The notes under the pieces are model-generated. The model saw only the letters and a list, made by a program, of their open reading frames with translations. It ran no database searches and was not told where the DNA came from. From positions 62,001 to 126,000 of the forward strand of contig WIXG01000020.1 in the NCBI GenBank assembly GCA_009869945.1: 64,000 nt of DNA, written 5' to 3'. A program made the translations under genes and the position numbers. The stretch comes from Mesaphorura yosii (taxonomy: Eukaryota; Arthropoda; Collembola; Poduromorpha; Tullbergiidae). Position 1 is the first letter of the stretch. Each line of letters opens with the position of its first letter. Positions 16,901-31,983 of the stretch are shown piece after piece.

Positions 16901-18735
16901 AGACCAAAAATCCTTTTCTCCTGCGCTTGACTCTCGTCTGACATTGTACGAGCATGCATGCATGAATGCCAATGTCACCTTGCAAGTTAAAATGACATTG
17001 TGACCTTCTTCAGGGTCCAAATCATATGATTGACACTTCTGGAGAAATGTGTGAATGAACATTTCAGCTGCGTCCAGTCCTAAGTCTGTCGTATCGTCAC
17101 GCAACGCAGCCGTCTGTTAGCATGCCGCAACACAGCACAGCGCAGATTTCATTTCGTATGAAATAATGAAAGATTGGTCCGACGGTCAAGGTGGGCGTGC
17201 GTGGAGCTGAGGCGCAAAATCATTTTGCTTCAATAAGCGAGGAAGGACAGGACAAAAACTTGTTTTTATTTCGCTTTGCACTCGCCCTGCACGAAAGAGT
17301 TTTATTATATTCGTTGTTAGATTGGATGTGAGAACATGTTGAATTGACCACAAGGAGAATTGAAATTGAACCAAACCACAAAAGCGTAGCGCAGAGCACA
17401 CGCTACAGAAAATGTTGCAAAAACTCCTCCTTTCCACGTACTGCCTTTCGCTTTAACGTTACGCTATACAAACTGTGATAGGCGCTATGTTATTGTACTC
17501 TCGTTCTCTAAATGAAAGCTTGCTAGAAAAATCTAGACCACATCAAACACTTTTTAGATTCATTTGCAGCCCCTGACTTTTGCGTTTCGTGAACTTTACA
17601 CCTTTAAACAGGGCCACAGGTTTCAAATGTGATGCAAGTTTCATATTTTAATTAAGCGCTTTAAGGGTGCCAAACCTCAGCTTTTTTGAGGTTGTCATGA
17701 ATGTTTATGAAGTGTTTACACTTCGGATAAAATAACAAATTAACCTCAAATGTGGTCGAAAATGTCCACATCTCATAACTTGTCCTCGCCATCGTAGCAC
17801 ACTCACTCTAAAATAAATCATGGTGTGGTGGAGACCCCCAAGATTACGTCAAGATTACACAAATAGTCGGGAGGCAGGACGGCTGCTGACGTCCGTGGCC
17901 ATCCGCCGAGGACATTCGACAGAGGAAGTGTTTGTACTGCCCCGGGCCAGTTGGATTCGGTTGCGAATGAACGGAGGGAACGCGCTATTCCATGACAAAG
18001 TATTTCTGTGCCATGGCAGTCGAATAAATATATTATTTGTATTGAAAATATTGACAATCTTTCCAATCAAAAAAGTTGGTTCTGACTTGGTCTCTCATTC
18101 CTGCCTTTGTTTCCAGTAACAATTGTCAATTTTCGTTGCCTTTCACGTAAAACTGGGGAAAATACGAGAAAACCCACCGCAGACATATGTACCCGCATTA
18201 CACAATAATAAAAATGCATTGTCATTTTATTATTACAGTATTTCCCCTCACGGTCTTATTATTCAAGTTACGAGTTCAGCAGAGTCCGGCATTATGCGGA
18301 AAATCCATTTTGTCTCATCCATCTCCTCATCTCAATTCCTCCATGGCGTAATAGTCAATTGACTTCCCGCCGCTGTTCTGGGTAATACGCACACGTTTGT
18401 GCGTAGCCTTGCTTATTTGCTTTTAATATTGGAACGTGTCACTGCTCCATGGATGCAGTATGCAGAACAAATTTATTGTGAATTTACTTTGCCAATATGA
18501 ATAAAAATATCGCATTATGCGGCCCGAATGCGTATTGTTTCATTTGAGATGCATTCGTAATTGGCCCTCGGAGGAGATTCTGGGCTTTTGACGGCGTAAT
18601 AAAAGTTTCCTTCTCTCTTTGGCTATCATCCACCATGATTCACAATGAAACGTTTCTAGACTGCTGCTTCCGTATGCTTGATAGTACGAAATATCCGGAT
18701 TCAATTAACCGAGCCTTTATTTCTTTAATTTACAG

Positions 18736-30464
<11,729 letters not shown>

Positions 30465-30578
30465 CTGTTGCCTTGGGGGCAGTTTCCCCAGCTGCCTGGG
30501 CTCAGACCAGCGTTTCCACCACCACCACCACCCATGTTTCATCAAAAAGGAGCCTCGCCGCCTACAAGACTCTTCTGA
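30465..30578 (+). CDS. BCL11: Putative stop-codon readthrough extension (37 codons)
   Basis: Directly after the TGA at 30462-30464, the same frame stays open for 37 codons (30465-30575) until a second TGA at 30576-30578. The translation begins LLPWGQFPQLPGLRPAF, continues through six prolines, and ends MFHQKGASPPTRLF. The sequence looks like a disordered protein tail rather than AT-rich UTR. The first stop is UGA followed by CUG, near the leaky UGA-CUA context. Short G/C stems are possible just downstream (TGGGG 30474-30478 with CCCCA 30486-30490, or GGCAG 30478-30482 with CTGCC 30492-30496). Alternatives: chance openness of a GC-richer stretch, an unrecognised splice that bypasses the TGA, or a base error at the stop. 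Confidence 0.45.
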   Translation: MLPWGQFPQLPGLRPAFPPPPPPMFHQKGASPPTRLF

Positions 30579-30705
30579 GAAACCTGGTTAATTGGTCAGT
30601 TTGAATTTGCAATAGTGTAGATGAGATTTTAGACTCACGGGGAAGTAAATGCGTGGATTCTTGTGATAGAGTTCATTGTACATTGTATTGACCATATTCA
30701 GAACT

Positions 30706-30721
30706 CATATGACGTCATATG
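30706..30721. promoter_or_regulatory. 16-bp perfect palindrome containing a CRE (TGACGTCA)
   Basis: CATATGACGTCATATG reads the same on both strands. It contains the full CREB/ATF site TGACGTCA (30710-30717) flanked by two E-box-like CATATG hexamers. It lies about 240 bases after the stop codon, in the presumed 3' UTR. Confidence 0.45.
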
Positions 30722-30827
30722 CAATATAAATGTGAATGTAATGTTCTCTTTTCTGGGGCAATCTGCTACCGTAAGCTGAACTCGTCTTTATTTTCATCCA
30801 TGCATGGATTACACCACAAAACACATC

Positions 30828-30833
30828 AATAAA
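30828..30833 (+). terminator. Candidate polyadenylation signal AATAAA (proximal)
   Basis: First AATAAA after the stop codon, about 365 bases downstream. No clear GT-rich element follows it, so its use is uncertain. Confidence 0.35.
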
Positions 30834-31983
30834 TCAAAGCATTATAGCATAACATCATCATAATTAGCGCTGTAATAAAAGGATGTACAAAACGCAATAA
30901 CAAAATAGCGCATTAGTACTTAAAAGAGCAATTAAAAGAAGGATGATGACGAAGTGAGCTCGCATTACCCATATTTTGGTTATAATAAAGCAATAGCGGT
31001 AACAATAAACGTTCTTTCCCGGGATCAGCACTTTTTATTGCAATTTTCGAATCGAGATCGAGTCGCTGACCTATTTATTGCGAGGTGGAATATTTCGTTG
31101 ACGATTCATTCACTCCAATTCAACAATAATAATAAAATAACGCAATAGTTGAACACTTTTGCAACCTTCCGCCTTCGAAGTCAATACTTGAATACTTCTT
31201 TTCGCTGGGAACGCAACGAACACTATCCTTAAAAGACACGCATTTAAGAGTCTACTACGCAATTTGACCTGCCTTCACGGTGAGACACGTCGAGATAGAA
31301 TTTCAGAATTTGTTGCGTGAACAACGCAAAAGACCACTGGCCAAAAACTCCATTGTGTATTGTCGTACTTAGAATTAATTAAAGCTTTGTTTCGCATTTT
31401 ATCGTATTCGTAGGGATAAAGTCGTTGAGTTTGTGAACTACTTGTTATTGGTGTTGGCTTATGGGTTCACACGTTTGCTATTTACTGCAGTGCACATAAC
31501 TTTTATGCAAACGTAACTCGATAGGTAGGAAATTGTTTTGTAACTTTGTAGGATGCATCGTGTAAATAACGAGATATGTTTAATTGTTCGTTTCTCAGAA
31601 GTACGCCGACACATCTGCTTCTTCTTAGAATTTATTAAGTAACTGATTTAGCTCGTGTTTAGGTTACAATGCGAAGTCTGACACACAAATACAAATGGCA
31701 TGAAAACATCCCGGTGAAAGAATGACGCACCTTTTGCTTGTAAAGCTCAGTGACTTTAATCACGACACGAGGCTTTCACACCGAATTTACTTTAAAAAAT
31801 TTTTGCATTGCGCAGATAGAAACGACAGCTTTACATCAACTTTTACAGTGTACTGAGGCTAGAGTATAGTCTATTTTGTTCTACAGAATTTTATATCTAC
31901 TATCGTAAAGATTAACGTAGTTAGTGTATGAGATTCGTTAGTTAGGGCAGAGTGCTGCGTCCCAAGCACTCTCGAAGGCAAAG

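Follow-up and report, generated by a model that had tools for sequence, protein, structure and literature searches.

In the window analyzed here, a 64,000-nucleotide stretch of the Mesaphorura yosii genome, the reading frame of a gene of the BCL11 family, whose product is a transcription factor with a known role in brain development, reaches a UGA codon and then continues in frame for 37 sense codons to a second UGA. This arrangement raises the question of whether the first UGA simply ends the protein, or whether some ribosomes pass it and add a second C-terminus.

A BCL11-family gene and the end of its reading frame

The coding segments of the gene lie on the forward strand. The N-terminal exon, an open frame at 18729..19619, contains a BCL-11A-type CCHC finger at approximately 18774-18854 (Pfam PF25491 CCHC_BCL-11A, E 1.2e-13). 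A second open frame, with inferred boundaries at 26909..28072, carries the first C2H2-like finger, and its acceptor AG occupies 26907-26908 (AAATCCATTTTTGCTTGCAG). It is followed by a probable GT-AG intron of 129 bases (28073..28201; GC 0.33), which the long BCL11 open frame spans and which sits 5' of a zinc finger. Because its length is divisible by three and it holds no stop in the frame, its retention would add 43 residues before the zinc finger. The exon at 28202..30012 encodes the central fingers and the first C-terminal finger (Pfam zf-C2H2) and ends at the donor CAG/GTACGT. The last coding exon (30207..30461), delimited by phmmer and translation, encodes the C-terminal BCL11 fingers, the last of them C2HC, then VKLE and a short tail. 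Residues 1-41 of this exon matched PDB entries for the zinc fingers of BCL11A, 8tho among them, with an E of 1.8e-18 (phmmer).

Judged by its sequence, the locus is a member of the BCL11 family, as both the BCL-11A-type CCHC finger and the C-terminal finger array are present. Its zinc fingers are orthologous to those of Drosophila CG9650/Chronophage and vertebrate BCL11A/B. The last finger of the fly orthologue is described as ending in Cys rather than His, and is thus C2HC like the last finger of the gene in the window (PMC9482335). We searched the genome (93 Mb, 1,127 contigs) for paralogues and found five weaker zinc-finger matches besides the window locus. One of these (C101, L005), once translated, resembles a PRDM/EVI1-type gene. 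The viral contig collection yielded no BCL11 locus, and the bacterial and archaeal collection yielded no orthologue; the seven loci found there were 37-49% identical and look like generic C2H2 proteins. Among the article texts examined, none reported readthrough at the stop of CG9650/Chronophage/BCL11 itself. In one BCL11 paper (PMC9758057), the phrase "stop codon readthrough" occurs in the reference list only.

The original prediction placed 37 Pro-rich codons between two UGAs, and this is exact. The first stop, at 30462..30464, is followed by CUG; the candidate extension occupies 30465..30575 (translation LLPWGQFPQLPGLRPAFPPPPPPMFHQKGASPPTRLF; 12 of 37 residues Pro) and includes a (CCA)5 run at 30516..30530; and the second UGA lies at 30576..30578, all on the forward strand. 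The prediction also described an annotated stop of the leaky UGA-C type. The sequence TGA-CTG is indeed present at 30462-30467, so that TGA is followed by C as in the leaky context of functional readthrough genes, but the stop was inferred from the frame and not taken from an annotation. TGA, and C after it, are favoured at published readthrough stops (PMC5100048). The Drosophila and Anopheles readthrough genes of Jungreis et al. 2016 (PMC5100048) likewise have TGA-C and a second open frame of more than 10 codons; they differ in that their support comes from coding signatures across several species and from stops that are conserved, whereas the BCL11 candidate is known from one genome.

Two other origins for this arrangement were set aside. 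Internal duplication as the source of the tail was rejected, as the best similarity to the remaining BCL11 protein had an E of 2.4, which is not meaningful. Selenocysteine recoding of the UGA was also put aside, since no SECIS element or other Rfam family reached the gathering score anywhere in the window.

The length of the open frame carries no weight, because the other two frames are open across 30465-30575 as well and about a fifth of comparable triplets are followed by a frame this long. Counted on both strands of the window with coding parts included, at least 37 open codons follow 474 of 2,561 TGA, 112 of 505 TGAC and 10 of 44 TGACTG. The openness of all three frames and the TGAC count agree with ordinary termination at the UGA, according to which the 37 codons are the GC-rich beginning of the 3' UTR, open by chance, and any leakage is functionless background noise. 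We consider this explanation a strong competitor, somewhat short of an even chance.

Base composition around the two stops

The prediction that the extension is richer in GC than the UTR beyond it was borne out: GC was 0.586 in the extension and 0.361 in the following 122 bases, with 0.558 in the last coding exon. Within 30207-31000, the best GC change point fell at 30563, with positions 30533-30600 lying within 2 log units, and forcing it to the first stop cost 10.9 log units. Composition therefore remains like that of coding sequence up to about the second stop. The position of the fall near the second stop rather than the first favours a coding extension, and the adjacency of this boundary to the second stop counts against ordinary termination.

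The same composition could arise without readthrough if the protein normally ended at the second stop, or did so until recently, and the UGA entered this longer frame through a polymorphism, an assembly error or a nonsense change of recent date. In the single-genome test of Jungreis et al., cases of this kind are subtracted (PMC5100048, section 28). Against this explanation, the C-terminus upstream of the stop already extends beyond VKLE. VKLE after the last finger resembles a motif close to the ends of vertebrate BCL11 proteins, which terminate near its equivalent; together with the end of one fly isoform, this leads us to expect a stop about here. The fly evidence is a cloning primer that, as we interpret it, implies an isoform ending SLKEEA-TGA (PMC9482335). 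On balance, a nonsense change or assembly error appears unlikely.

Ras-family genes of this genome served as controls. The search for them listed 132 matches and gave 30 loci, and 23 fragments were traced to a stop, 15 of which had Cys among the last five residues. In the 111 bases that follow the stop, GC was lower than at the end of the coding sequence in 12 of these 15 and higher in C36, C41 and C663; among the eight fragments lacking the Cys, two (C531 and C227) were higher after the stop. Eleven of the 15 were kept as likely true C-termini, while C104, C36, C41 and C663 were dropped as possible runs into introns. Post-stop GC was lower in 11/11 of the kept controls, with C85 and C20 within 0.02, but this is weak evidence because the set was picked by eye with the GC values already known. 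In eight of the 11 the change point came later than +40 relative to the stop, and in four it came later than the +99 seen in BCL11, so a late GC fall is not special to BCL11 and is compatible with ordinary termination. BCL11 lies at the margin of this small group of 11 genes.

The sole TGA-C among the kept controls belongs to a Rho-like gene that shares its contig with BCL11 (L069; G000:C20, approximately 402786, minus strand), which ends in CTII and TGA-CTC and then has 48 open codons. The synonymous score of its extension, of the kind described below, showed no frame preference.

Codon usage in the extension

The prediction that the extension consists of protein-like codons gained some support from synonymous codon choice, which leans to frame 0, and none from whole-codon scores, which were flat or negative. 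We used our own codon scores, whereas the published frame test relies on the Z curve (PMC5100048). The training set comprised 23 of 30 kinase loci (seven were left out because of stops inside the match), two open frames from one PRDM-like gene and the BCL11 exons, one piece of which carried 8 bases of probable intron at 28073.

With whole codons, the extension scored -1.87 in frame 0, +0.59 in frame 1 and -3.07 in frame 2. Of 358 true coding windows, 7.3% scored no higher than its frame 0, while scores at least as high were reached by 18% of 160 open off-frame windows, 56% of 1,939 open non-coding windows (41% of the 56 whose GC was 0.55 or more) and 49% of 2,000 open shuffles. The power of this score is low for such peptides: of the 64 true windows containing six or more Pro, 47% scored no higher, and frame 0 was best in 67%. 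The whole-codon score thus contains no frame-0 signal, in agreement with ordinary termination, and has little power on Pro-rich peptides.

When synonymous choice alone was scored, frame 0 of the extension reached +5.05, compared with -2.6 and -3.3 in the other frames. This value exceeded 97.5% of 564 true windows and was reached by none of 1,128 off-frame windows (stops skipped) and none of 1,939 open non-coding windows. Approximately three of the five units came from the (CCA)5 run. Without the repeat the score was +1.92, a value reached by 2.0% of 3,000 shuffles, by 4.1% of full-length non-coding windows and by 10.7% of the 56 among these whose GC was 0.55 or more. With the overall coding base composition as background instead of the extension's own, frame 0 scored +1.45 against +0.47 and -1.23, and with the repeat removed +0.50 against -0.12 and -0.20. 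Synonymous codon choice therefore prefers frame 0, mostly through (CCA)5, and this speaks against ordinary termination. We regard it as modest support, because overlapping windows like these are not independent of one another and because the test was added once the whole-codon score had come out flat.

RNA structure after the stop

Short stems 3' of the stop had also been predicted. Folding gave a hairpin at 30465..30505 on the forward strand (-19 kcal/mol over more than 35 bases), with a 5-base loop and a 3-base bulge at 30474-30476, but this predicted structure is no more stable than shuffled sequence. Compared with dinucleotide shuffles of this single sequence, four overlapping stretches showed no excess stability (z +0.5 to +1.1), and 8.5% of 153 BCL11 coding stretches, or 14% of the 63 with similar GC, were at least as stable. 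The bulge also exceeds the limit of 2 allowed in a fly screen for readthrough stem-loops (PMC13170385). An unremarkable hairpin agrees with ordinary termination. Only some 9% of Anopheles readthrough candidates have a predicted conserved structure (PMC5100048), which implies that RNA structure within 100 nt is not required for readthrough. A close parallel is the fly gene dfr/vvl, in which a stem-loop promotes readthrough: it and BCL11 both encode transcription factors, and BCL11 has a predicted hairpin just after its stop. The gene dfr/vvl differs in that its stop is UAG and the tested element covers +10 to +58, whereas BCL11 has UGA and a predicted hairpin from +1 (PMC13170385).

Possible alternative splicing around the UGA

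The extension could also be joined to an upstream exon by alternative splicing that removes the UGA. The donor at 30013 has two candidate partners that keep the frame, acceptors whose last bases are 30482 and 30491; another possible junction would link a donor at 30326 with the acceptor that ends at 30505. The UGA lies within CTGAC (30461-30465), which resembles a branch-point motif, 18 and 27 bases 5' of the two frame-compatible AGs. The acceptors themselves are weak. Of all AGs in the window, on both strands, 25% score at least as high as the acceptor at 30482, 22% as the one at 30491 and 19% as the one at 30505, whereas the acceptors that the gene uses at 30206 and 26908 are equalled by 7.5% and 1.6%; these scores come from a general consensus rather than one trained on the M. 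yosii genome. The donor at 30326 scored 1.95, while the true donor reached 5.69. Such splicing seems more doubtful still than a nonsense change or assembly error.

Readthrough in arthropods and the lineage of this genome

The original prediction appealed to wide use of readthrough in arthropods. This holds for Pancrustacea but is too broad for arthropods as a whole: abundant readthrough is reported in Pancrustacea and not in the centipede or arachnid tested (PMC5100048). Tribolium castaneum and Apis mellifera also fell below threshold in the same test (PMC5100048, section 17). Within Pancrustacea, at least 5-6% of mosquito and fly stops are estimated to be read through (PMC5100048), and at least 306 functional cases were inferred among 851 candidates in bumblebee (PMC7826183).

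Regarding the lineage of the present genome, we found 66 Chitin_bind_4, four OS-D and four PBP_GOBP matches, one of the last being re-scanned with an E of 6e-7. Odorant-binding proteins of the PBP_GOBP kind point to a hexapod, and together with the chemosensory matches they make it plausible that the gene lies within Pancrustacea, where readthrough is abundant. The MRJP/yellow family gave only two matches in the genome, apparently one gene (G000:C124:68423-70782). Set beside the few odorant-binding and chemosensory matches, this suggests that the animal may not be a typical insect and perhaps belongs to the hexapods outside the insects.

In flies, readthrough proteins show a slight bias towards nuclear and regulatory functions, and those of their extensions that are long are disordered (PMC4999894); the BCL11 candidate fits this pattern.

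A possible second C-terminus of BCL11

The UGA of BCL11 is a reasonable but unproven candidate for functional readthrough, a reading that we regard as possible and as nearly tied with ordinary termination, ahead of a nonsense change or assembly error and of alternative splicing. These weights are our judgement. What can be seen directly at the locus is the UGA-C context, the open frame, coding-like GC to about the second stop and the synonymous preference for frame 0. If the readthrough reading is correct, some ribosomes would pass the UGA at 30462-30464 and go on to the UGA at 30576-30578. The product would be a minor BCL11 isoform with a 37-residue Pro-rich tail, probably disordered, after the last zinc finger. 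Translation of the extension, its rate and a function of the tail are what we infer from these features.

The tail contains FPPPPPP, which fits an EVH1-binding pattern. It is conceivable, though improbable, that readthrough of the UGA supplies a regulated second C-terminus of BCL11 in this lineage, and that the FPPPPPP tail would alter the partners recruited. Even if true, the import would be modest, since the gene would be one more in a known class, joining hundreds already proposed in insects rather than founding a new one. A conserved neural transcription factor would then have gained a second C-terminus controlled at termination, in a lineage possibly outside the well-studied insects.
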